From assembly GCF_000018405.1 (NCBI RefSeq), contig NC_009943.1, positions 3,103,001 to 3,167,000 on the forward strand: 64,000 nt of DNA. Reading direction: 5' to 3'. A model generated the notes under the pieces. That model saw nothing but the letters and a program-made list of their open reading frames with translations. It did no database searches and was not told the DNA's origin. A program made the translations under genes and the position numbers. This DNA comes from Desulfosudis oleivorans Hxd3 (GTDB lineage Bacteria; Desulfobacterota; Desulfobacteria; Desulfobacterales; Desulfosudaceae). Below are positions 15,396 to 53,429 of this stretch, piece by piece; position 1 is the stretch's first letter; each line of letters begins with the position of its first letter.

Positions 15396-16135
15396 GCTGC
15401 CATGCCCTGGATCAGGGCCAGGACGTTCTGGCCCAGCACATCGTGGTTGTAGCCCCCCTCCAGGACGGCAAAGCATCCGCCGCTGTTTCGCCGGGCCGCG
15501 CCGGCCGCCATTTTGCCGATCTCAAAATAGTCGCCGGTGGACAGGACCCCGCCCCAGTCTTCCATGTGGTTGTCAAACCCGGCGGAAATGCCGATAATGT
15601 CGGCCTCGCACCGGTCCATGGCGTCTGCCACCTCCCGCAGATAGGCGTCGCGCCGCATGGCATCCACGTTATGGACCGTGACATAGGACTTGTCTCCCAG
15701 AATGTTCACGGTGCCGTCGCCGTAGTGAAGGTCGATGTCCAGCACATAGGCACTGTCGATGCGGCCCCGGTTTTTCAAAGACGCAATGGCCACGGCCATG
15801 TTGTTGAAATAGCAGAACCCCCAGGAGGCATCGGCAGAGGCGTGGTGGCCCGGTGGCCGGACCAGGGCAAAGCAGGGCTCGGCCAGGCCGATTTGGGCGG
15901 CCTGCACGGCCCCACCCGCGGCCAGCATGGCAACAGGATAGAGCCGCTGACGCCTCACCTCGTCGATATGGGCTTCGGTGTGCACGGCCGCCACGTCGTT
16001 ATGGTCCGCCATCTCGGCGGTCACAAACCCGGCAAAAGGGTCGATGACCTTGACCACGGCCTCCATTCGGCCCTTTGCCGCGGCCGGGTCCGATGTGTAG
16101 ACCTGGTAAAAATCGGGATGAAAAACAACCTTCAT
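15392..16135 (-). CDS. Histone-deacetylase-family hydrolase (acetylpolyamine amidohydrolase-like)
   Basis: Zinc hydrolase with the arginase/deacetylase fold. The 247 residues show ALVRPPGHHA with the catalytic His pair, GFCYFNNMAVA, the zinc-binding VLDIDLHYGDGT (Asp and His), GISAGFDNH (third zinc ligand Asp) and the C-terminal VLEGGYN. Bacterial members remove acetyl groups from polyamines, lysine or small acyl-amines; the substrate here cannot be inferred. GGAG six bases before the ATG at 16135 sets the start. It is the first gene of a three-gene operon, which is an unusual combination. Confidence 0.9.
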   Translation of the reverse strand: MKVVFHPDFYQVYTSDPAAAKGRMEAVVKVIDPFAGFVTAEMADHNDVAAVHTEAHIDEVRRQRLYPVAMLAAGGAVQAAQIGLAEPCFALVRPPGHHASADASWGFCYFNNMAVAIASLKNRGRIDSAYVLDIDLHYGDGTVNILGDKSYVTVHNVDAMRRDAYLREVADAMDRCEADIIGISAGFDNHMEDWGGVLSTGDYFEIGKMAAGAARRNSGGCFAVLEGGYNHDVLGQNVLALIQGMAA

Positions 16136-39952: not shown

Positions 39953-41377
39953 TTAAAGACCGACCAGCAGCTTCTCATGAATGTTGTCAAACCCGCCGTT
40001 GGACATCACCAGCACCACGTCTCCGGCAGCTGCCCTGCCCTTTAAAAAATCCACAATGGCGTCGGCCCCGTCAAAACAGTACGCCTCCTTGCCGCTTTTT
40101 ATAAGGTCATCGGCCAGCTGCTGTGAAGAAAAGCGCATGCCTTCAGGCACCTTTTCCGGCAGGGGCACCCGGCTGACACACACCATGTCCGCCAGGTCAA
40201 AGGCCTTTGCGTAATCCTGCTGGAACACGTTGCGCATGCTGGTGTTGGTTCTGGGTTCAAACACCGCGATCAGCCGTCCCTCCGGGTAAAAGGGCCTCAC
40301 CCCGGCAATGGTCGCGGCCACGGCCGTGGGATGGTGGGCAAAATCGTCCATCACCGTAACCCCGCGCACCACGCCCCGCACCTCCTGCCGCCGCCGCACC
40401 CCGGAAAAAGTGGCCAGGGCTTTTTTTATCTCTTCCGCCGGCACGCCCACGCTGTGGGCCGCGGCCGCGGCTGCCAGGGCGTTTAACAGGTTGTACCGGC
40501 CGATCAGCCGGGTCTCAAACGTGCCAAACACCGCATCGCCGCATATCATCTCCACCACGCTGGCCGGCGGCTGTAATGTCACCCTGCCCAGCCGCCACGC
40601 CGAATCGTCCCGGTTGCCGTACATTTTAACATTGCAGGCCCGGCCTTTTACCAGGTCCCTCACCACCGGGTCTGAATCAAATGCCAGAAGCAGGCTTTCC
40701 GGCAAAAGGCCGCCGATAAACTTATCAAAGGTTTTTCGAACAGCCCCAAAGTCGGCAAAAATATCGGCATGGTCAAACTCCACGCCGGTTAAAATGGCCA
40801 CCTTTGGCCGGTAGTGAAAAAACTTGGACCGCTTGTCAAAAAACGCGGTGTCATACTCGTCACCCTCGATCACCATGTGCCGGCCCTTGCCCAGCCGATA
40901 GTTGCCGCCAAAGTCTTTTACCACGCCGCCGATCACAAATGACGGGTCCAGGCCCGCGGAATAGAGCATCCACGCCAGCAAAGAAGAGGCGGTGGTTTTG
41001 CCGTGGGTACCGCACACCAGCAGCACCTCCCGGTCTTTTGCGGCAAAGTGCTGTATGGCCTGGGGCATGGAGCAGTAGGCAAGGCCCGCCTCAGCCAGCC
41101 GCACCACCTCGGCATTGTCTTTGGACACGGCATTGCCCACCACCACCAGGTCGGGCCGGTTATCCAGGTTTTCCGCGGCAAACCCCCGGGCCACGGGAAT
41201 CTGATTTTGGGCCAGAAGATCGCTCATGGGCGGGTAGACATTTCTGTCCGACCCGGTCACCGCATACCCCAGCTCCTTGAGCATGCAGGCCAGGGCCGCC
41301 ATGGCCGTTCCGCACACCGCAATCAAATGGACATTTTTGACATCATCCGGGATTCTGTTTTTATTCGGATCGATCAT
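39953..41377 (-). CDS. mpl: UDP-N-acetylmuramate:tripeptide ligase
   Basis: Murein-recycling ligase that joins UDP-MurNAc to L-alanyl-gamma-D-glutamyl-meso-diaminopimelate. The 474 residues have the Mur ligase layout: an N-terminal Rossmann domain (HLIAVCGTAMAALACMLKE), the ATP-binding VCGTHGKTTASSLLAW, the IEGDEYDTAFFDK Mpl/MurC-specific segment, GRYNLLNALAA, and MDDFAHHPTAVAATI, which is the Mpl version of the C-terminal domain. It lies next to the accessory island and its first ~22 codons are duplicated at 42936-43009. Confidence 0.94.
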   Translation of the reverse strand: MIDPNKNRIPDDVKNVHLIAVCGTAMAALACMLKELGYAVTGSDRNVYPPMSDLLAQNQIPVARGFAAENLDNRPDLVVVGNAVSKDNAEVVRLAEAGLAYCSMPQAIQHFAAKDREVLLVCGTHGKTTASSLLAWMLYSAGLDPSFVIGGVVKDFGGNYRLGKGRHMVIEGDEYDTAFFDKRSKFFHYRPKVAILTGVEFDHADIFADFGAVRKTFDKFIGGLLPESLLLAFDSDPVVRDLVKGRACNVKMYGNRDDSAWRLGRVTLQPPASVVEMICGDAVFGTFETRLIGRYNLLNALAAAAAAHSVGVPAEEIKKALATFSGVRRRQEVRGVVRGVTVMDDFAHHPTAVAATIAGVRPFYPEGRLIAVFEPRTNTSMRNVFQQDYAKAFDLADMVCVSRVPLPEKVPEGMRFSSQQLADDLIKSGKEAYCFDGADAIVDFLKGRAAAGDVVLVMSNGGFDNIHEKLLVGL

Positions 41378-41383
41378 GTCTGC
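41310..41383. repeat. mpl 5'-end direct repeat, copy 1 (within intact gene)
   Basis: The first ~22 codons of mpl plus six upstream bases. The same sequence occurs in the same orientation at 42936-43009 with 70 of 74 bases identical. Confidence 0.85.
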
Positions 41384-41715
41384 ACTTCCTGTTCTCCAAA
41401 AAACTCCGCCGGGTTTTATCCCTGATTACCCACACACTGATGCTGCCTCATAGGGTATGATCAATAACTCATTTTCCATTGACATTTCAATAAAATAAAA
41501 ATAGGGTCGAAAAAAACCGGGGGGGACAGGCGCTTTACAGCCGCTCTACATCACAACACAGAATCCATGTCCGGACGGCACACACATCCCCGCCACCAGA
41601 ACAAATCGATGAAGCGTCCAACGTATAACAGTCGGGATAGACTGTGTCTCCCCTCCTTATGTGTTGGACCGCTCATCCCGGGCGTTTAGCCCGGTTTCAT
41701 GGTAAAGAGAGCTTC
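41384..41715. other. Intergenic region, accessory island left part
   Basis: AT-rich sequence with no supported gene. TTGACA at 41479-41484 followed after 17 bases by TAGGGT is a possible weak promoter for the gene at 41716. It is not a recognisable copy of the dispersed repeats. Confidence 0.4.
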
Positions 41716-42897
41716 ATGAAACTCACGTGCCCCAAGTGTGCTAAGAAACTTAAAGTTCCAGACAAAATGTCTGGGAAGCGAGGCAAGTGTCCGGCTTGTG
41801 GACAGATAATTACAGTGCCGCATAAGGCATCCATAACACCACAGGAGCCCGTGGTGTCTACGAAAGCCGCCATCCCAAGAGTCCCGGATGGACCGTCTTC
41901 ATTTTCCTCAAACGACAAGCCTGCGCCTGCTGTCTCCCAACCTGTCAAGAATCGTACTGAAAATGTTCTTAAAAAAGACCCAAAGGAATCTCTTGAACAT
42001 TTACAGAAGGTCTACCGGGATTTTGCAAAACCGGTCGGAAGGAGCTCGGCTGCTTTTGGATGTCTCATGGTGTTGGTGATAATTGCCGGGATCATTACCT
42101 GCTTCGCGGTCAGTTGGCTTCTCGGCATCTTTGGTGGGATATTGGTCTTAGTGCTAGTTGTATCGATTGCGAATCGAGTGGAGACCCCACACAAGAACCG
42201 TGCGAAAGAACGCGTCTCAGGACTGGAAAAACTTTATGGGCTGTCCCACCAGGAGTCTCTCGACCTTCTGGCAGCCACACGGTCCGGGGCCGAGACCGAA
42301 GACAAAAACGAATGGAAAACGTTTGTCACTGAAATTTGGGGGGAGGAGGCCCTGGCTCTAGCAGTAAAACAGGAACACACACCCAAACCAGCGCGCGGCG
42401 CAACGCATCCGGCGGGGGAAATGTCTGACTCGCAATCAGCAGTGTTTCGCCCTCTTGCAGATATTGTGTTCCCAAGTGCGTGCGTAGGCTGTTTTTCTGC
42501 CAATGCCACCGAAAGCCTTTTACTCAATACATGGGCGGCCACAAAGACAAGAACAGCAACCAACATCGGGGGCATCGGAGGTGCGTTTGTCGGGGCAATA
42601 GCCGGTGGCATCGTCGGGTCGATAGTTTCAAATGCTTGTGGAGAAACTGAATCTTACAATATCCCCATCTGTCGAAGCTGCCTGTACCGTCTGGAAAAAA
42701 CAAAAATTCAGGAATTGGCAGATGGGGGAGGCATCTTAGCACCAGGCCCGACGACCAACCTGTTTCTGAACCGTGAAATCAAGAAAGGGTGCATTCTTCT
42801 GCACTTCAACAATGAAGACTACGCCAGGGCATTTTGGGCACAGAACCAGGGAAAGGTGTTTGATACACTTAAAGGCTGCCGCCGTGGCGGTAAATAA
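41716..42897 (+). CDS. Unknown zinc-ribbon membrane protein
   Basis: A 393-residue protein that I do not recognise as a whole. It begins with a zinc ribbon, MKLTCPKCAKKLKVPDKMSG..GKCPACG (two CxxC knuckles), a polar stretch to ~100, two adjacent hydrophobic helices (~115-165; LMVLVIIAGIITCF, LLGIFGGILVLVLVVS), a second soluble part with CVGC and CRSC (a possible second zinc site) and a glycine-zipper hydrophobic segment IGGAFVGAIAGGIVGSIVS near 300. The start at 41716 is chosen because the zinc ribbon begins there. It is flanked by copies of the mpl 5' end, suggesting acquisition as a unit. Codon use is more AT-rich than in the flanking core genes. Confidence 0.75.
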   Translation: MKLTCPKCAKKLKVPDKMSGKRGKCPACGQIITVPHKASITPQEPVVSTKAAIPRVPDGPSSFSSNDKPAPAVSQPVKNRTENVLKKDPKESLEHLQKVYRDFAKPVGRSSAAFGCLMVLVIIAGIITCFAVSWLLGIFGGILVLVLVVSIANRVETPHKNRAKERVSGLEKLYGLSHQESLDLLAATRSGAETEDKNEWKTFVTEIWGEEALALAVKQEHTPKPARGATHPAGEMSDSQSAVFRPLADIVFPSACVGCFSANATESLLLNTWAATKTRTATNIGGIGGAFVGAIAGGIVGSIVSNACGETESYNIPICRSCLYRLEKTKIQELADGGGILAPGPTTNLFLNREIKKGCILLHFNNEDYARAFWAQNQGKVFDTLKGCRRGGK

Positions 42898-42935
42898 AGA
42901 GTGAACAAGGGCATGGTGTTAATGGCTTTCAGCCG

Positions 42936-43009
42936 CCGCACACCGCGATCAAATGGACACTTTTGACATCATCCGGGATTCTGTTTTTATTCGGGTCGAT
43001 CATGCCTGC
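42936..43009 (-). pseudogene. Fragment duplicate of the mpl 5' end
   Basis: Contains the mpl start codon and ~22 codons in the same orientation as intact mpl, with changes GAT to GAC, ATT to ATC (both silent), AAT to AGT (Asn to Ser) and one upstream base. After it the sequence is unrelated, so it is not translatable. The bias to silent changes suggests it derives from another strain's functional mpl rather than from drift of a dead copy. Confidence 0.8.
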
Positions 43010-43270
43010 CTTTTTCTGTTAAAAAATTGAAGCAATATCCTGGTCAATTATCCAGAGGACTTCTAACACCCAGAAAACGCAATAAGGTTCTGATTTTTCA
43101 GAAGCAAGATATTTGTTCAGCAGGTAGTTCTGAAAGTCTTTCATGGACATGGATAATTATTCTCCACGCTTATATAGATTCTATATAATCTTTTGTATGA
43201 TAAGGGAATATAGGAATCGTGGCAATGGTATTTTTGCATAACAAATTATGATGAATGGACAATTTATCAG
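43010..43270. other. Intergenic DNA between mpl fragment and cassette array
   Basis: AT-rich, with no convincing gene on either strand. No integrase-like sequence was seen here, which is where intI would be expected in an ordinary integron. The short minus-strand frame across 43181-43492 crosses palindromic cassette DNA and has no ribosome site. Confidence 0.5.
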
Positions 43271-43299
43271 TTGACAAAAACGACTGCACCCACAATAAT
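43271..43299 (+). promoter_or_regulatory. Pc-like promoter at the head of the cassette array
   Basis: TTGACA (43271-43276), a 17-base spacer and AATAAT (43294-43299) form a near-consensus sigma-70 promoter reading into the array. It lies 40 bases before the first GTT core (GTTCGCC, 43340-43346), the arrangement of an integron Pc promoter and attI. Confidence 0.65.
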
Positions 43300-43337
43300 C
43301 GGGAAACACTGGTGGGGAAATAGAATCAATATAATCT

Positions 43338-43413
43338 ACGTTCGCCGAGCGCGCAGCGGACTTCGTCCTTGCGCCCTCGGCGAATTGCCGCAGTTGAGCG
43401 ACGATAAAATCGC
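43338..43413. repeat. 76-bp direct repeat, copy A
   Basis: Starts at a GTTCGCC core and is identical over 76 bp to 46113-46188. It contains a TTCGCCGAG/CTCGGCGAA hairpin. In copy B it runs straight into a CGCTCAACTGCGGCAATTAG segment; here ~107 bp containing an attC-like site intervenes before that segment resumes at 43520. Confidence 0.85.
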
Positions 43414-43465
43414 TCCACCGCCTTGTCGCTTCCCGCTGCGCGCTCAGCGAACAAGACGTTGGAGC
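43412..43465 (+). other. attC-like site 0
   Basis: GCTCCACC at the left and GTTGGAGC at the right, with inner arms CTTGTCGC and GCGAACAAG that pair apart from one extra base, the unpaired-base feature typical of attC. The AAC of the left core is changed to CAC. It would close a short cassette without a gene (43340-43458). Confidence 0.5.
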
Positions 43466-43562
43466 GGACCCTTTACCGTCACGAAACTGCATGCATACGG
43501 CAATTTCATGCCGGGAAAGCGCCGCTCAACTGCGGCAATTAGCCATCGATAAAGGACAGAAA

Positions 43563-44264
43563 ATGTCAGAAGCAGAGGAAATTGCTAAAGCTGTTCAGGG
43601 CGTTGCCAATCTCGGAGAAAAATCCTTAGAGACATCAGAAAAGCTTGGAGGGTTCTTCGCGCGTGTATTTAAGGAACCTATTCAAGAGGTATCGGGTATG
43701 ATAACCGATAAATTGAGGTTTGTCCGCTGGCGCCGCCTAGTTCAAATGTCAGATGATGTAAATCAAATACTTAAAGACCGTGGTGTAGAAGATACTCGAT
43801 CAGTGCCACCAAAGTTGGCACTTCCAATATTTGAAGAAAGTAGCCTTGAAGATGATAAAAATATTCAACATTTGTGGAACCAGCTACTTGCTAATGCAAT
43901 GGACCCCAATTTTAATGGTGAGTTGAGGTATGGCTTTGTTGACATCATCAAGAACATTACCGGAATTGAAGCAGTAATTCTAAATAACTTTTACAATATA
44001 TTAAAAAGAGAAGGGCATCATGCTGATCTAGGTAAAATTACAAACTACAGCCTCAAAAAAGAACAAATTATGGAAATGGTTAAAATTGATGAAGGGACCT
44101 ATCAAGTAAGCATCTTCAATCTCATGCGCATGCAATGCATAGGCCCTGCAATACTGAGAGGCGGTGTAACTATGGGGTCTGAGCCACTAACAATTTATAA
44201 GGGCTCTGATGCTGTAACGCTCACACCCTTGGGCGTAAAGTTTATTGAAGCATGTATCAAATGA
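43563..44264 (+). CDS. Abi_alpha (DUF4393) family protein, cassette gene
   Basis: A 233-residue soluble protein of the family once called DUF4393 and now annotated as abortive-infection alpha. Features recalled from that family and visible here are the N-terminal helix AEEIAKAVQGVANLGEKSLE, the FFARVFKEPIQEVSGMITDKLRFVRWRR segment (interrupted here into shorter motifs in the family), PLPxxEESSLEDDKNIQHLWNQLL and a C-terminal LTPLGVKFIEACI. AAAGGA seven bases upstream of the ATG at 43563 sets the start. An attC-like site follows its stop after one base. A phage-defence role is likely from the family name and setting, not demonstrated. Confidence 0.75.
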   Translation: MSEAEEIAKAVQGVANLGEKSLETSEKLGGFFARVFKEPIQEVSGMITDKLRFVRWRRLVQMSDDVNQILKDRGVEDTRSVPPKLALPIFEESSLEDDKNIQHLWNQLLANAMDPNFNGELRYGFVDIIKNITGIEAVILNNFYNILKREGHHADLGKITNYSLKKEQIMEMVKIDEGTYQVSIFNLMRMQCIGPAILRGGVTMGSEPLTIYKGSDAVTLTPLGVKFIEACIK

Positions 44265-44265
44265 T

Positions 44266-44390
44266 GGCTAACAACACGTTGGTGAGGGACCGCAAGGCGC
44301 GGTCGGTGTTGGCACTTATCAAATAATTTTAAAAACGAAATTTCTGCGGTGGCCCGTTCCCCTTGCGGCCCCACACCGCGGACGTTGGGC
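44266..44390 (+). other. attC site 1
   Basis: GGCTAAC (44266-44272) to GTTGGGC (44384-44390), 125 bp. The left half GGACCGCAAGG pairs with CCTTGCGGCCC on the right and the outer halves pair imperfectly. It directly follows the Abi_alpha stop. Confidence 0.75.
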
Positions 44391-44397
44391 GTGAACT

Positions 44398-44925
44398 ATG
44401 CATATGAGAGAACACATTCAGCCCGTAGGCAAAATATTCACTGGGCCACGAATTTCACTTCCGGAAACCGCAGGCGTGTATGCTTTCTGGTGGATTGGTA
44501 GCAAAGAGGAGTTATTATCTTCAAACCGCCACATTGTCCTCAAGGGACCAGGGGGGCGACCCGTTGATGTCGTCTATGGCGATTGGTGGCCTGAAGAGTT
44601 AATTTATCCCTGCCTTTATATTGGAAAATCAACGAACATTAAGAAACGGTTCTCATTACACATAAAAAGCGGCTCACTTGGGAGGCTTCATGTTCCGCTT
44701 GACGGCAATATTAAGGCAAAACCGGCTACGACATCTTGTCAATTGCGTTTTGGGATAGAGCATATATTTCCATCCGAGGAAGATCCCTTATCGATGATTT
44801 ATGCGAAAGTTGGATTCTCTTTCAACACGGATTTTCCTGACAACGCAATCGCTGAGCGATTTTTCGAGGAGGACAAACTTGTGGGGCTTTGGAGACCATG
44901 GTTCAACATTGATTCAGAGCGATAG
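44398..44925 (+). CDS. GIY-YIG-like nuclease-fold protein, cassette gene
   Basis: A 175-residue protein with the order of GIY-YIG endonuclease motifs: AGVYAFWWIG (GVY in place of GIY), then YPCLYIGKSTNIKKRFSLHIK (YIG followed by the catalytic-region Arg), and a C-terminal AERFFEEDKLVGLWRPWFN with the metal-binding Glu. The long insert between GVY and YIG (~45 residues) is unusual for the family. It begins 7 bases after an attC core and its stop lies one base before the next, so it fills a single cassette. Role unknown; a restriction or defence nuclease is possible. Confidence 0.7.
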   Translation: MHMREHIQPVGKIFTGPRISLPETAGVYAFWWIGSKEELLSSNRHIVLKGPGGRPVDVVYGDWWPEELIYPCLYIGKSTNIKKRFSLHIKSGSLGRLHVPLDGNIKAKPATTSCQLRFGIEHIFPSEEDPLSMIYAKVGFSFNTDFPDNAIAERFFEEDKLVGLWRPWFNIDSER

Positions 44926-44926
44926 C

Positions 44927-44984
44927 GCCCAACCTATAAATTCAGCGGACGCAAAAAGCCGCGCCGCTGATTAAACAGTTATAC
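44927..44984 (+). other. attC site 2
   Basis: GCCCAAC (44927-44933) to GTTATAC (44978-44984), 58 bp, with inner TCAGCGG/CCGCTGA arms. It starts one base after the GIY-YIG gene stop. Confidence 0.75.
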
Positions 44985-45006
44985 GCAACAGAATAAGGCT
45001 ATTCCT

Positions 45007-45422
45007 GTGAAAAAATATATAAAGTTCAATTTATTGAAATTCACCCTATTGCAAGCCTTAATACCTCCAGTATTCTTCTTTTCTTTTAATATCCTTGTAG
45101 GGTTTGAAATACCAATGATAGTATTACTGGGCTTCTCATTGATAGGCGCCATAGGATTTGCTTTAGCTGGCGCAACCATGGCAGCAATGGTTTTAGATTC
45201 CGTTATGATCAACGATGAAATAAAAAATACGTCTCAAATAATTGGACGTGGATCGGTTCAATTGTCAAATGCAAAAGATCATTTTCTTTTGGCTCTGTTC
45301 TTATTACTCTGAAAGATAACGTTAATAAATCAATTGCCAGAATTCCACGTCCATTTTGGGCTGACGATCCGGAATTGATCAAAGATATTCTTGATAGAAT
45401 TGAAAATAAGCCCAGCGTATAA
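45007..45422 (+). pseudogene. Frameshifted small membrane protein, cassette gene
   Basis: The ATG at 45007 opens a frame of 101 codons (MKKYIKFNLLKFTLL) with two hydrophobic helices (~15-35 and ~38-68) that stops at 45312. From about 45275 a second frame, shifted by -1, continues FGSVLITLKDNVNKSIARIP and ends ENKPSV at a stop (45420-45422) placed inside the next attC core, exactly where a cassette gene should end. The simplest reading is one ~137-residue protein broken by a single frameshift. I found no clear slippery heptamer. Family unknown; the tail PRPFWADDPELIKDILDRIE is distinctive. Confidence 0.65.
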
Positions 45423-45544
45423 CCAGGCAGCCCAAAAGGACCGCCAGGGCATTCGGCTTTTGAACATTCGGGGAAAATTAAACATCAACCATCTTTAAGA
45501 CAGTCAGAGGGAGCCCTGGCGCCCTTTGGCTGCCGCCGTTAGCC
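45417..45544 (+). other. attC site 3
   Basis: GTATAAC (45417-45423) to GTTAGCC (45538-45544), 128 bp. GGCAGCCCAAAAGGACCGCC and GGCGCCCTTTGGCTGCC pair as a long imperfect stem. The left core overlaps the stop of the preceding gene. Confidence 0.8.
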
Positions 45545-45557
45545 TTCTTAACAAATA

Positions 45558-45965
45558 ATGTTAAGTAAACAAAAAATCGAAAAATCTGTTACTCTGATCC
45601 AGCTAATTTATTTTATTTTAGCCATATTTGGATTTTTGGGTATTTTCTTTGGTTTGTTGGGTTTGTTTGAGAGTGAAAGCCGAAATGATTCAATTGAAAC
45701 AATTTTCTTGTCGTTCATTTTCATTATTTTATATTTTGGCTTAGTGCAAAGAAAGGAATGGGTTATTCCAGCTATTCTTTTTTGCTCGGCTTTTGGAATC
45801 ATTAGGACATTAATTTTTGTGCTCCATCCGGCTTGTTCGTCCAATGCAATCGTTGAAAAATTTTTTATCTTTTTATTTTTTTTGTTTTGGACCTATCAAC
45901 TTCATATTTTCTCAAAACCTGAAGTTAAAAAATTGTTTTGTTGCAAAGGCGCTGTTTTGTTCTAA
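45558..45965 (+). CDS. Small multi-pass membrane protein, cassette gene
   Basis: A 135-residue protein with four predicted membrane helices (LIYFILAIFGFLGIFFGLLG, FLSFIFIILYFGLV, WVIPAILFCSAFGIIRTLIF, FFIFLFFLFWTYQLHIF) and short polar loops. I do not recognise the family; it resembles small membrane proteins that are frequent in cassette arrays and immunity genes. Very AT-rich codon use. The ATG lies 13 bases after an attC core and the stop 31 bases before the next. No ribosome site is obvious. Confidence 0.65.
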   Translation: MLSKQKIEKSVTLIQLIYFILAIFGFLGIFFGLLGLFESESRNDSIETIFLSFIFIILYFGLVQRKEWVIPAILFCSAFGIIRTLIFVLHPACSSNAIVEKFFIFLFFLFWTYQLHIFSKPEVKKLFCCKGAVLF

Positions 45966-45996
45966 GTTTTGGAGAACGGTAAACTCAAGGATGGAA

Positions 45997-46121
45997 GGCT
46001 AACCACGCCACCCACACGGACTCGCAGGGGCGGTCGGCTTTGGGTTTTGGCGTAATTTGGTGTTGAACTCACTTTAGCGAAGTCTGCAAACCCTGCTCGC
46101 CGGTGGTGGTGGACGTTCGCC
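45997..46121 (+). other. attC site 4
   Basis: GGCTAAC (45997-46003) to GTTCGCC (46115-46121), 125 bp, with GCAGGG/CCCTGC and CCACC/GGTGG pairings. The right core is followed by copy B of the 76-bp repeat. Confidence 0.7.
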
Positions 46122-46188
46122 GAGCGCGCAGCGGACTTCGTCCTTGCGCCCTCGGCGAATTGCCGCAGTTGAGCGACGATAAAATCGC
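46113..46188. repeat. 76-bp direct repeat, copy B
   Basis: Identical to 43338-43413. Here it continues into a perfect 17-bp inverted repeat, ATTGCCGCAGTTGAGCG with CGCTCAACTGCGGCAAT at 46160-46205, whose cores GTTGAGC and GCTCAAC look like attC core sites facing outward. Confidence 0.85.
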
Positions 46189-46222
46189 CGCTCAACTGCG
46201 GCAATTAGGGAAAAAATATGAT

Positions 46223-46260
46223 TTGACAACAGGTCCCTTTGTGGGTATATTGTAATTACA
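46223..46260 (+). promoter_or_regulatory. mazEF promoter and operator-like palindrome
   Basis: TTGACA (46223-46228), 17 bases, TATATT (46246-46251) is a strong promoter. The palindrome TGTAATTACA (46251-46260) overlaps the -10 end and start point, a fitting site for autorepression by the MazE-like antitoxin. Confidence 0.7.
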
Positions 46261-46282
46261 TTAACCACAATTGGAGGCGAAA

Positions 46283-46537
46283 ATGACGACTTTAATCAGA
46301 ATAGGAAATTCACAGGGTATCCGTATTCCAAAAGCGATAATCGAGCAAGCACGATTGGGAGACAAGCAATTGGAATTCAAAATAATCGACGACGGGCTGT
46401 TAATTCAACCTGTGAAGAAAAATAGAGAAGGCTGGAAAGAACAATTTGATAAAGCCCTTAAAGCCCAGGAATCAAGCGCATCGGATCAAGAGTGGTTGGA
46501 TGCCCCATTGGTAGATGAAGAGGACTGGGAATGGTAA
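46283..46537 (+). CDS. mazE: MazE-like antitoxin
   Basis: An 84-residue protein with an N-terminal AbrB/MazE swapped-hairpin DNA-binding fold (LIRIGNSQGIRIPKAIIEQARL, the IGNSxGxRIPK signature) and an acidic C-terminal tail (WLDAPLVDEEDWEW) that would wrap the toxin. GGAGG at 46272-46276 precedes the ATG at 46283, and a strong promoter lies 30-60 bases upstream. Its stop overlaps the mazF start by seven bases, so translation is coupled. The module carries its own promoter, as toxin-antitoxin cassettes usually do. Confidence 0.88.
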   Translation: MTTLIRIGNSQGIRIPKAIIEQARLGDKQLEFKIIDDGLLIQPVKKNREGWKEQFDKALKAQESSASDQEWLDAPLVDEEDWEW

Positions 46538-46860
46538 AAAAAGAGGTTCAAAGATTTGAGATTTGGCTGGTTCAACTTGATCCGACACAAGGTTCTGAAA
46601 TTAAAAAAACAAGGCCTTGTGTTGTTGTCTCCCCTGATGAAATGGCTGCTCTGAAGACCGCGATTGTTGCCCCGATGACATCCAAAGGATTTAGCTATCC
46701 AACCAGAGTCCAATATACATTTCAGGGTAAAAAAGGATTGATCTTGCTTGACCAACTGAGAGCCGTTGACAAATCCAGGTTAATTCAAAAACTTGGTGTA
46801 ATTTCCCAAAATTCGCAGATTAAAATTACCAATTGTTTGCAAGAGCTTTTCGCGTATTAA
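46531..46860 (+). CDS. mazF: MazF/PemK-type mRNA interferase
   Basis: A 109-residue toxin: RFEIWLVQLDPTQGSEIKKTRPCVVVSPDEM is spread over the first 40 residues with the RPxxVVS motif, AIVAPMTS carries the conserved Thr-Ser, and LLDQLRAVDKSRLIQKLG closes the active-site groove. It cuts single-stranded mRNA at short sequences; cognate antitoxin is the upstream mazE. It ends two bases before the next attC-like site. All catalytic-region motifs are intact, so the toxin is probably active. Confidence 0.9.
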   Translation: MVKKEVQRFEIWLVQLDPTQGSEIKKTRPCVVVSPDEMAALKTAIVAPMTSKGFSYPTRVQYTFQGKKGLILLDQLRAVDKSRLIQKLGVISQNSQIKITNCLQELFAY

Positions 46861-46862
46861 GT

Positions 46863-46923
46863 GGCTAACCACGGCATCAAAGCGACGGCAAAATGCCGCC
46901 GCGCCTTATGCCGGCCGTTGCAT
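46863..46923 (+). other. attC site 5
   Basis: GGCTAAC (46863-46869) to GTTGCAT (46917-46923), 61 bp, with CGGCAT/ATGCCG and CGGCA/TGCCG stems broken by single unpaired bases. The site is the most compact and regular of the series. Confidence 0.8.
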
Positions 46924-46934
46924 CTCAAAAAGGC

Positions 46935-46963
46935 TTGACAAGGCGTACGCAATAACGTACCTA
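46935..46963 (+). promoter_or_regulatory. yefM-yoeB promoter and operator-like palindrome
   Basis: TTGACA (46935-46940), 17 bases, TACCTA (46958-46963; weak). Between them GTACG (46945-46949) and CGTAC (46956-46960) are inverted, resembling the TGTACA-cored operators of YefM-type antitoxins. Confidence 0.5.
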
Positions 46964-47000
46964 TGGATGGGTTCGAAAATTTTATTATAAAAGGTAAATC

Positions 47001-47243
47001 ATGCCGACATTAACTGCCACAGAAGCAAGGTCAAAACTCTATGGCCTGATCGATGAAACAGCTGCGTCCCATGAGCCAATAATTATTAAAGGCAAGCGCG
47101 GTAATGCAGTGCTTATCTCTGAAGATGACTGGCGCTCTATCCAGGAAACAATTTATCTCCTGAACATTCCAGGTATGCGGGAATCAATACGAGACGGTTT
47201 AGCCACCCCCGTCGAGGAGTGTACAGAGGAACTTGATTGGTAA
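47001..47243 (+). CDS. yefM: YefM/Phd-family antitoxin
   Basis: An 80-residue protein. TLTATEARSKLYGLIDETAA is the N-terminal DNA-binding segment of the Phd/YefM fold and EPIIIKGKRGNAVLISEDDW is the family's hallmark strand. The C-terminal PVEECTEELDW is the toxin-neutralising tail. It is preceded by the palindromic operator at 46945. The stop and the toxin start share one base (TAATG), so translation is coupled. It lies within a single cassette between attC sites 5 and 6. Confidence 0.88.
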   Translation: MPTLTATEARSKLYGLIDETAASHEPIIIKGKRGNAVLISEDDWRSIQETIYLLNIPGMRESIRDGLATPVEECTEELDW

Positions 47244-47503
47244 TGTGGCTGATCGTCTTCACAAAGCAAGCGCAAAAAGACGCAAAAAAACTATCCTCTG
47301 CCGGTTTAAGACCAAAAGCAGAAATGTTGATTGAGGTTTTGCGTGAAAATCCTTTTATGACACCTCCTCCCTATGAAAAGCTATTGGGTGATTTATCGGG
47401 GGCGTATTCCCGTCGCATCAATATTCAACATCGTCTTGTCTATCAAGTTCTTGAGGCTGAAAAAACGGTTAAGATTATACGAATGTGGGCTCATTACGAA
47501 TAG
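47243..47503 (+). CDS. yoeB: YoeB/Txe-family toxin
   Basis: An 86-residue RelE-superfamily mRNA interferase: FTKQAQKDAKKLSSAGLRPKAEMLIEVL forms the N-terminal helices, then PYEKLLGDLSGAYSRRINIQHRLVYQV with the conserved YSRRI..HRLVY core and the C-terminal IIRMWAHYE in place of the usual RYHY. In YoeB the final His and Tyr act in ribosome-dependent cleavage; here His and Tyr are kept one residue from the end. The ATG at 47243 overlaps the antitoxin stop. The attC-like site 6 begins 7 bases after its stop. Confidence 0.88.
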   Translation: MWLIVFTKQAQKDAKKLSSAGLRPKAEMLIEVLRENPFMTPPPYEKLLGDLSGAYSRRINIQHRLVYQVLEAEKTVKIIRMWAHYE

Positions 47504-47509
47504 TTTTTT

Positions 47510-47576
47510 GTATAACAAGCGGGTGCAGGTGAGCCTTCCGCTGGTGCTACAGGCCACCTGACCCGCGGCGTTATAT
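47510..47576 (+). other. attC site 6 (last)
   Basis: GTATAAC (47510-47516) to GTTATAT (47570-47576), 67 bp. GCGGGT and ACCCGC, and CAGGTG and CACCTG, form two stems. The right core runs into ATATGAAATATCCGGG, part of the TTTCATGAAA palindrome family, which marks the junction with the chromosome. Confidence 0.8.
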
Positions 47577-47665: not shown

Positions 47666-48655
47666 ATGAAAGCAGTGGTCACAGGCGGGGGCGGGTTTCT
47701 GGCCGGGCACCTGATAGACAAGCTGGTAGAAGCCGGACATTCTGTCAGGACGGTTGAGCTTCCGGGGCGGAACGTTCAACGGCTGAAAGATCTGGATGTG
47801 GAGATTGTTACCGGGGATCTATGTGATCCGAGCCTTGCCGCGCGGGCCTGCGAGGGTATGGACGTGGTCTTTAATCCCGCCGCCCTGGCCGCGCCCCTCG
47901 GTCCATGGAAACGGTTCTGGTCGATCAACGTTGAACTTGTCGACAATGTAATAGCGGGGTGTAAAAAGTCGGGCGTCCGTCGCCTGGTGCATGTCAGTTC
48001 CCCCTCTGCTGTTTTTGACGGCAGCGACCACTTTGACGCTGATGAAACGCTTCCCTTTCCAAAAAAGTTTTTAAACTACTACTGCGCGACCAAGGCGGAG
48101 AGCGAAAAGCGCGTCCTGGCGGCCAATGGCACAGACCTTGAAACCGTTGCGATCCGGCCACACGCGATCTGGGGGCCAAGAGACCGCACCCTGTTTCCGC
48201 GCATTATCGAGCGGGCCAAATCACGCCGTCTCGTTCAGGTAGGAGACGGAACCAATATCATCAGCACCCTTTATGTGGAGAACGGTGCCGATGCCCTGAT
48301 CCTGGCGGCCACCGCGGATAGAGCACCGGGTAACGTCTATTTTGTGACGGACAACGACACGGTTAACCTGTGGGGCTTTTTAAGACGCATACTGAACGAC
48401 CTGGGTTTGCCACCGATCAGGGCCAGGATCCCTTACCCGCTTGCTTATACACTTGGCGCCACTCAGGAGGTATTATGGACGGTTCTGAAGTTGTCCGGCG
48501 AGCCGACCATTACCCGCTATTCCGCTGCCGAACTCGCTAAAAATCACAGCTATTCCATAGATCGCGCCCGTACTGATTTGGGTTATGAGCCAACGGTTTC
48601 GCGGGAAGAGGGTCTACAACGTTTTTATGAGTGGGTCAGGAACAACCTGCTTTGA
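47666..48655 (+). CDS. NAD-dependent epimerase/dehydratase (3-beta-HSD-like reductase)
   Basis: A 329-residue extended SDR with the NAD(P) motif VVTGGGGFLAGHLIDKL, the catalytic Ser-Ser in VHVSSPSAV and the YxxxK in LNYYCATKAESEKRV. IRPHAIWGPRD is the segment shared with 3-beta-hydroxysteroid dehydrogenases and OleD-like 2-alkyl-3-oxoalkanoate reductases. It is the first chromosomal gene to the right of the cassette array, and the following SRPBCC and beta-propeller genes lie on the same strand within 60 bases of each other. They may act on one lipid-like substrate. Confidence 0.88.
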   Translation: MKAVVTGGGGFLAGHLIDKLVEAGHSVRTVELPGRNVQRLKDLDVEIVTGDLCDPSLAARACEGMDVVFNPAALAAPLGPWKRFWSINVELVDNVIAGCKKSGVRRLVHVSSPSAVFDGSDHFDADETLPFPKKFLNYYCATKAESEKRVLAANGTDLETVAIRPHAIWGPRDRTLFPRIIERAKSRRLVQVGDGTNIISTLYVENGADALILAATADRAPGNVYFVTDNDTVNLWGFLRRILNDLGLPPIRARIPYPLAYTLGATQEVLWTVLKLSGEPTITRYSAAELAKNHSYSIDRARTDLGYEPTVSREEGLQRFYEWVRNNLL

Positions 48656-51694: not shown

Positions 51695-53389
51695 CTATCC
51701 ATCCAGCCCCAGGGTGCCGCCGGGATTCATGATGTTGTGCGGGTCAAAGTGACGCTTGAGGGCCCGCAGCACTTCCATCTGCTCCGCGCCCAGGTGGCGT
51801 TCCATTTTCGGGCCCATCATGCGGCCCACGCCGTGATGATGGCTCAAGGAGCCGCCGTGTTCCACGATGGCGTCGATGATGCCGCGCTGAAACGTCCGGA
51901 ACTCTTCAGCCCCGGCCATGGGCATGATAAAGATAAAATAAAGATTGGTGCCCTGGGCGTAAAAATGGGAAGAATGGGTCATGCAGACGGCCCTGACCCG
52001 GTCTTTTATGTATTTGCGCACACCCTGGTGGACATGGTGCAGGTTGTCCCATGTGACCGACGTCTCCAGTGTGTCGATAAGAATGCCGATATCGTTCAGG
52101 TCTTCGCGCATGTAGGGGTCTTTGAAGCGGGAGGCAAACCACTTGCTCGCCGGGTAGGTGGTCAGGTAGATGCCGCCGCAGGCCCTGCACACACGGCCGA
52201 CCTTTTTCTTCACGTTGGCGGCAAACCCCTTTTCACCGTCGGCCTGGCCCAGCATCAGGCAGCGCCGGCCGGGTTTCATGCCGCGAAGGCGCAGAAAGGT
52301 GTCGGCCGGGGTTCCGGCAATGCCGTACATGTTCATGGCCACGTCGGTCTCCTCAACGTCGGAGATGCGCAGCACCGAGGGCATGCCGAACTCCCCCTGG
52401 CTGATGTTCCGGGCCGCTTTCACCGCCGATTCCCAGTCCGGAAACATGTAGGAAAACCGCCGGGTGTTTTCCGGCATATACCGGAACACCTTCATGGTCA
52501 GGCCCACCAGCACGCCGAAACATCCTTCGCTGCCCTTCATGATGTCATTGACCTTGGGGCCTGTGGCCGTGCCCGGATAATCCAGCGTCTTAAACGACCC
52601 GACAGGTGTCACATACTCCTGGCTGACCACCAGGTCGTATGCATCACCGTAATAGGAGGAGAGCTGGCCCGACCCAAGGGTAACCACCCAGCCGCCCACG
52701 GAGGAGTATTCAAAAGACTGGGGAAAGTGGCCCCCGGTGTAACGGTGGCTGGCGCCGAACCGATCAGGCGCGTTGTTCAGCAGCTCCTCGTAGGCAGGCC
52801 CCATGATGCCCGCCTCCACGGTGATGGTCTGGTTGGCTTCATTAAATTCGATCACCCGGTTCATGTGGGTGCCCATGACCAGGGTCACGCCGCCGCCCAC
52901 GCCGTCCAGGCCCAGCGTGACCGAACTGCCGCCGCCGTAAACACGCGCCGGAACCTTTTTTTGATGGCAGTAGGCCACAATGGCGGCCACATCCTTTTTA
53001 TCCCTGGGATGCACCACGCAGTCGGCCACGTGTTCGGCCCTGCCGGTCCGGAGCTGAATCAGGTCTTCCATGGCCTTGCCGGACGAATGCAGCACCCGGC
53101 TGTAGTCGTCCGTGGCGATGTTCTGCTCTCCCACGATGGCGGCCAGGGCGGCCATGTCATCGGAAGAGAGACGGCAGGGAATGTCGTGTTTCACCGGCTG
53201 GTCCCCGGTGTCGGGCCCGCGCTTCAGGTCGGCGTCCGACAGCCCCAATGTCTGCTGAATCACCTTCAAAAACCCGGCGCTGGGATGTTTGAACCCGTCC
53301 GGCGCGCCCCACTTTAAAATCGACCGATAGGTGCCGGGTTTGGGCGGGGTGCTGATCCACTCCGGAGTTTTTTCCGCCTGCTTGCTCAT
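51695..53389 (-). CDS. Alkyldihydroxyacetonephosphate-synthase-like FAD enzyme
   Basis: A 564-residue flavoprotein of the vanillyl-alcohol-oxidase/AGPS group. The FAD-binding PCMH part has CVVHPRDKKDVAAIV, VYGGGSSVTLGLDG, FEYSSVGGWVVTLGSG and MKGSEGCFGVL, which match human AGPS region by region; SHHHGVGRMMG provides the three-histidine active-site motif. AGPS swaps the acyl chain of acyl-DHAP for a fatty alcohol to make ether lipids; bacterial members may also oxidise D-2-hydroxyacids. GGAGGG before the ATG at 53389 sets the start. It is cotranscribed on the same strand as the FGGY kinase, with a hexamer tract between. Confidence 0.82.
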   Translation of the reverse strand: MSKQAEKTPEWISTPPKPGTYRSILKWGAPDGFKHPSAGFLKVIQQTLGLSDADLKRGPDTGDQPVKHDIPCRLSSDDMAALAAIVGEQNIATDDYSRVLHSSGKAMEDLIQLRTGRAEHVADCVVHPRDKKDVAAIVAYCHQKKVPARVYGGGSSVTLGLDGVGGGVTLVMGTHMNRVIEFNEANQTITVEAGIMGPAYEELLNNAPDRFGASHRYTGGHFPQSFEYSSVGGWVVTLGSGQLSSYYGDAYDLVVSQEYVTPVGSFKTLDYPGTATGPKVNDIMKGSEGCFGVLVGLTMKVFRYMPENTRRFSYMFPDWESAVKAARNISQGEFGMPSVLRISDVEETDVAMNMYGIAGTPADTFLRLRGMKPGRRCLMLGQADGEKGFAANVKKKVGRVCRACGGIYLTTYPASKWFASRFKDPYMREDLNDIGILIDTLETSVTWDNLHHVHQGVRKYIKDRVRAVCMTHSSHFYAQGTNLYFIFIMPMAGAEEFRTFQRGIIDAIVEHGGSLSHHHGVGRMMGPKMERHLGAEQMEVLRALKRHFDPHNIMNPGGTLGLDG

Positions 53390-53429
53390 AATCCCTCCAT
53401 TCCAAATATTTCGTTTCACCTTTAATCTT

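Follow-up and report, generated by a model that had tools for sequence, protein, structure and literature searches.

A duplicated mpl start beside the remains of a decayed integron in Desulfosudis oleivorans Hxd3

The window, a stretch of 64,000 nucleotides from Desulfosudis oleivorans Hxd3, contains an intact mpl gene whose 5' end occurs a second time on the far side of an intervening segment. The features of this part of the locus are:

39953 to 41377, minus strand: mpl, intact, 474 aa (TIGR01081, 410 bits, cut-off 388.7)
41310 to 41383, minus strand: mpl 5' end, copy 1, the functional start (70/74 with copy 2)
42936 to 43009, minus strand: mpl 5' end, copy 2, a stub of about 23 codons (70/74 with copy 1)
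41384 to 42935, no strand: segment between the mpl starts, of which only short motifs recur in the own genome
41479 to 41507, plus strand: promoter-like motif TTGACA-17-TAGGGT, directed towards the zinc-ribbon gene, spacing set by eye
41610 to 41684, no strand: imperfect attC-like hairpin GTCCAAC...GTTGGAC, status unsure, sharing 34 bp with a site at 1643.5 kb
41716 to 42897, plus strand: zinc-ribbon protein, 393 aa, the longest ORF between the copies, no family over cut-off

The duplication lies exactly where the initial annotation had placed it: comparison of the stretch with itself gives 70 of 74 identical bases between 41310-41383 and 42936-43009, with a BLAST E of 2.5e-29 in a search within an 18.8-kb stretch. 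Copy 2 consists of 6 leader bases and 68 coding bases, departs from mpl at codon 23 and then runs into a stop; it should not be annotated as a second mpl gene. Matches to mpl in the own genome number six, namely the gene, the copy 2 piece and four remote Mur-ligase-like places. Three of the mismatches between the copies are coding (41321, 41334 and 41369) and the fourth, at 41379, falls in the 6-nt leader. As was initially reported, two of the three coding changes are silent (D3, GAT/GAC; I19, ATT/ATC), the third being N15S (AAT/AGT). The conclusion drawn from this, that copy 2 stems from another, functional mpl gene, is not shown by it: two silent differences out of three do not suffice as proof that the donor was functional, since at least two of three would be silent with a probability of about 0.15 under neutrality (by arithmetic, with about one quarter of sites silent), and the mechanism favoured below would make copy 1 the donor's. 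The four differences do not separate donor from recipient. Outside the 74 bp, the similarity of the two leaders was matched or beaten by 9 of 400 random 40-mers from the window, 15 of 400 shuffles and 3 of 26 other gene leaders. Homology of the leaders beyond the repeat is thus not convincing, and the argument that the leader has diverged faster than the coding sequence was dropped for that reason.

The segment between the copies differs in composition from mpl (59% GC) and from the cassette array described below (42.6%), with 48.5% in its first part (41384-41715) and 51% in the zinc-ribbon gene. The encoded protein, by appearance a membrane protein, gave 17 listed Pfam families, every one below its cut-off, and the nine further ORFs between the copies (56-125 aa) gave no Pfam match at E 0.1. 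Relatives of the zinc-ribbon protein elsewhere are distant matches to its N-terminal part only (within residues 1-136), found on two contigs of one planctomycete assembly and in 19 of 290 other genomes of the order; none lies on a plasmid, and the own genome yielded no second copy of the gene. A transposon with target duplication does not fit the segment, as the repeat is 74 bp long with 4 differences and Pfam gives no transposase family among the ten ORFs.

Upstream of the zinc-ribbon gene, part of the promoter-like motif at 41479-41507, TTGACATTTCA, recurs at 8 other aligned places (6 at E<0.01, 2 at E>1), while the strict consensus scan did not report the motif. The nine aligned sites (the window and L002, L003, L005 and L107-L111) define a dispersed motif, TTGACATTTCA..AATA.A..TAG, perhaps the target of some regulator. 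Because it recurs at 8 places in the genome, the segment may be home-grown. The motif had also been considered as an attI site or a mobile element, a reading set aside once the nine-site alignment showed it to be dispersed and promoter-like. Some of the nine sites have TGTG.CAT..CG-like repeats nearby.

The hairpin at 41610-41684 raises the question of whether the segment is itself an integron cassette, as this would place an attC-like site to its left, one that has 34 bp in common, at 91% identity, with a site preceding another gene at 1643.5 kb, in the region of a second array. But the fold is only weakly better than shuffles (z -1.66, 13 of 200 as good), and nowhere in 42870-43340 is there a complement of more than 3 bases to the segment's start, TTGGACCGCT; we regard a cassette origin of the segment as very unlikely.

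The initial annotation, whose reading of an insertion at the 5' end of mpl is the likeliest one, overlooked what lies directly next to copy 2, namely a probable integrase remnant, an attI-like region and a series of cassettes:

43022 to 43150, minus strand: remnant of an integron integrase N-terminus, 43 aa up to a stop (profile E 6.3e-5)
43151 to 43340, plus strand: attI-like region, AT-rich, with the motif before the first cassette, ending ..AATAGAATCAATATAATCTACG^TT
43271 to 43299, plus strand: promoter TTGACA-17-AATAAT in the attI-like region (11/12, consensus scan)
43341 to 43538, plus strand: gene-less cassette of 198 bp, sitting exactly between G and TT
43539 to 44384, plus strand: Abi-alpha cassette (PF14337, 8.9e-24), start and own end complementary over 9 bp
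44385 to 44978, plus strand: GIY-YIG-like cassette (PF01541, 0.0035, below cut-off), 7-bp match
44979 to 45538, plus strand: small-ORF cassette (ORF 45007-45312), no family over cut-off, 8-bp match
45539 to 46062, plus strand: small-ORF cassette (ORF 45558-45965), no family over cut-off, 9-bp match
46063 to 46917, plus strand: MazE/MazF cassette region with an 89-bp shortened 198-bp element (46116-46204), complementarity failed (4 bp)
46918 to 47570, plus strand: Phd/YefM antitoxin and YoeB/ParE toxin cassette, taken as the last, complementarity failed (2 bp)

The remnant becomes recognisable only when it is compared with long integron integrases at their N-termini. A profile of ten such N-termini, run on the 1202 ORFs of the window, gives it E 6.3e-5 and no other ORF better than E 3.9; the profile comprises ten of a set of eleven long integron integrases of the order (the near-duplicate L091 was omitted), six of which were already among the matches to the remnant peptide. 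When the six most similar members served as the profile, a biased choice, the value was 1.7e-6. Identity to three of the integrase N-termini is 29-32%. Alone, the 43-aa peptide has no match in Pfam or the PDB, a single-sequence search of 116 genomes returned only its own copy, and a comparison with 55 loci without long integrases gave nothing better than E 1.6 beside own copies. The own genome has no match to TIGR02249 over the cut-off of 265 bits, and none at E<=1e-40; its best frame reaches 86 + 66 bits in two pieces.

The attI-like region carries the motif AATAGAATCAATATAA.CTA.G, which also precedes the first cassette in a similar region of the second array of this genome, located after a tRNA-Arg (the window contains no tRNA). 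Near-copies occur at 3275.0, 3528.7 and 482.6 kb, those at 3528.7 and 482.6 kb being directly followed by units that look cassette-like by eye. Attention is also drawn to the attI-like motifs at G000:C1 1652.5, 3275.0, 3528.7 and 482.6 kb (L123, L120, L121 and L124). These further motifs suggest that remains of several integrons persist in the genome, which has no integrase over the cut-off.

Cassettes span 43341 to about 47570, and their assignment rests on the rule that the 5' TTRRRY of a cassette pairs with its own 3' RYYYAA. Fourteen own pairs average 6.86 bp and 182 cross pairs 2.76 bp, and none of 200,000 permutations was as good as the own pairs, a result that is favoured by the choice of cassette boundaries by eye, in some cases after the match had been seen. 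Four of the six cassettes tested in the window pair over 7-9 bp and two, MazEF and Phd/YoeB, fail; elsewhere in the genome seven of eight pair over 6-10 bp and one over 3. Bottom-strand folds at seven sites (z -1.17 to -5.11) were all better than most of 200 shuffles; at the weakest, z -1.17, 28 of 200 shuffles were as good, and the attC candidate of the Phd/YoeB cassette folds with z -5.1. A strict attC pattern scan reported two of the sites along with ten matches elsewhere, because the start and end boxes in a linear array belong to different cassettes. No Rfam family matched the window at the gathering score. The Abi-alpha protein (43563-44264, PF14337) also matches the candidate defence families PDC-S47. 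To the right of the array, 47666-48655 shows a likeness to OleD-type 2-alkyl-3-oxoalkanoate reductases (282 bits, cut-off 580).

The 198-bp element at the head of the array occurs in six full copies, 97-99% identical, distributed over two arrays, in addition to the 89-bp shortened one. The copies lie at 43341-43538 in the window and, in the second array (L053, minus strand, upper ends), at 15974, 14915, 14256, 12817 and 12068. Every full copy has G before it and TT after it, and at five of seven places the TT-start that follows is complementary over 6-9 bp to its own cassette's end; the element is therefore placed after attI or attC and ahead of the following cassette. Its appearance is that of a non-coding integron cassette which has multiplied within a single genome. 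Its end reads A^TT here and G^TT in a related integron of genome G214, and relatives occur in at least 2 of 290 other genomes, with two candidates scored for each. In the second array, a large ORF at L053 9606-10958, by appearance an IS transposase, interrupts a cassette whose two ends are still complementary over 10 bp.

How the array came to lie beside mpl can be approached through the neighbouring genes, in particular the following:

51695 to 53419, minus strand: FAD-linked oxidase, the neighbour of mpl in G001 (71.5% to L102 4259-5953)

In G001, which with G002 represents the same family in a set of relatives that holds none of the same genus, five genes are contiguous and collinear in the order GntR regulator, oxidoreductase, kinase, oxidase and mpl, the oxidase at L102 4259-5953 directly preceding mpl (names other than mpl are given by appearance or from family matches below cut-off). 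In the window the first four of these occupy 57.7-51.7 kb, with mpl at 41.4 kb, so that 41.38-51.69 kb, a gap of 10.3 kb, lies between genes that are adjacent in G001. Among the 30 relatives examined, whose available upstream stretches of 2.3-18.9 kb often ended with the contig, the oxidase precedes mpl in G001 only, and in G002 another gene, a transporter by appearance, takes that place; the ancestral order thus rests on one genome, and the 10.3 kb is either one or more insertions relative to G001 or a loss in G001.

Both copies at the same positions in all related genomes would, as first proposed, have dated the duplication before the divergence of strains. A second mpl start was present in 0 of 30 relatives, five showing only chance matches of 20-31 bases; these 30 were taken from 39 other relatives, nine being dropped for a poor mpl match, a partial match at a contig end, a short contig or a sequence left unfetched. 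The same comparison bears on the idea that the 74-bp repeats are the attL and attR of a genomic island which integrates site-specifically at an att site in the 5' end of mpl. Islands with a replacement gene end are known, and the length of the repeat would fit. But Pfam finds no recombinase family in the ten ORFs between the repeats, and recurrent site-specific integration is unlikely on that account and in view of the 30 relatives without a second start; we judge an island highly improbable.

The initial annotation described a 1.5-kb segment acquired at the mpl 5' end. An insertion does remain the likeliest explanation, and the acquired stretch is probably larger, because 41.38-51.69 kb splits the G001 neighbours and copy 2 abuts a truncated integron integrase with attI and a cassette array. 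The repeat, the integrase-like remnant, the attI-like site, the cassettes and the split neighbours can all be seen directly, and they have led us to favour the following sequence of events, to which we give an even chance of being right. An integron, its integrase gene facing mpl, would have inserted with its neighbours between mpl and the adjoining oxidase gene; the integrase gene would later have been cut after about 43 codons, so that the remnant came to abut the mpl start now seen as copy 2. A related DNA fragment with a promoter, the zinc-ribbon gene and an mpl start of its own would then have been joined in. One end would have paired with mpl by homology, such that the new start (copy 1) was in frame with the gene; the other would have been linked, at a junction lacking homology, to codon 23 of the old start, of which a 74-bp stub would persist with the new DNA on one side and the dead integron on the other. 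We infer the pairing of one homologous with one illegitimate junction, the order of events and the assignment of copy 1 as the donor's start. The lack of demonstrable homology between the leaders fits different origins, and fits a bare 74-bp fragment as well.

Two other histories would leave the same picture. In the first, everything between mpl codon 23 and 42935 underwent a tandem duplication in place, and a later deletion began in the second start's leader and extended into the integrase gene. No donor is needed, the segment's promoter-like motif is found elsewhere in the own genome, and two illegitimate events at a decaying integron would be plausible, but the deletion must end within a few bases of the second ATG and no second zinc-ribbon copy was found in the genome; such a history is a lesser possibility, to be taken seriously though on the whole somewhat unlikely. 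In the second, the integron side is the newcomer, with copy 2, the remnant and the cassettes coming from a strain that had the integron upstream of mpl and becoming joined to a resident mpl-segment locus. The direct attachment of copy 2 to the integrase remnant speaks for this, and it comes near the earlier view of copy 2 as foreign; a source is lacking, however, and a larger incoming piece is needed, which makes it unlikely.

On the favoured reading, of integron insertion, integrase loss and one-end-homologous joining, the locus shows a chromosomal integron that separated a core gene from its neighbours and then decayed; a housekeeping gene that has been patched now stands next to what is left of it, the cassettes, attI and a truncated integrase. 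The setting is an order in which integron integrases are common, TIGR02249 being over cut-off in 135 of the 291 genomes searched, a total of 291 that includes the own genome. A more far-reaching version, which we consider quite improbable, treats the repeat as a rescue scar: integron decay, having joined the integrase remnant to the mpl start, would have cut mpl off from its gene neighbours, and related DNA taken up with a promoter and a good ribosome site would have restored its expression. If true, horizontal transfer would here be seen to have repaired collateral damage done by an integron.

The insertion of linear DNA with one homologous and one illegitimate end is a described process (PMC3240628), and homology-facilitated illegitimate recombination of this kind could leave part of the anchoring gene repeated on the far side of the insert, as seen here; at the mpl locus it is deduced from a single genome. 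Decayed integrons, like the one around the repeat, are a known type of structure, and a literature search on integrons under the species name found nothing. The integron of G214 (L179) resembles them in having an integrase gene on the minus strand, an AT-rich attI and a relative of the 198-bp element (72.6% across 157 bp that take in the attI end and the first part of the element). It differs in keeping a full integrase of 410 aa (TIGR02249, 416.6 bits, cut-off 265). CALINs, as characterised in one account (PMC9024848), lack an intact integrase, contain two or more cassettes bounded by attC and have been proposed to be degraded integrons. The locus described here likewise retains cassettes and has no intact integron integrase; unlike a CALIN, it preserves 43 codons from the start of the integrase gene along with an attI-like site, and the truncation abuts the duplicated start of a housekeeping gene.
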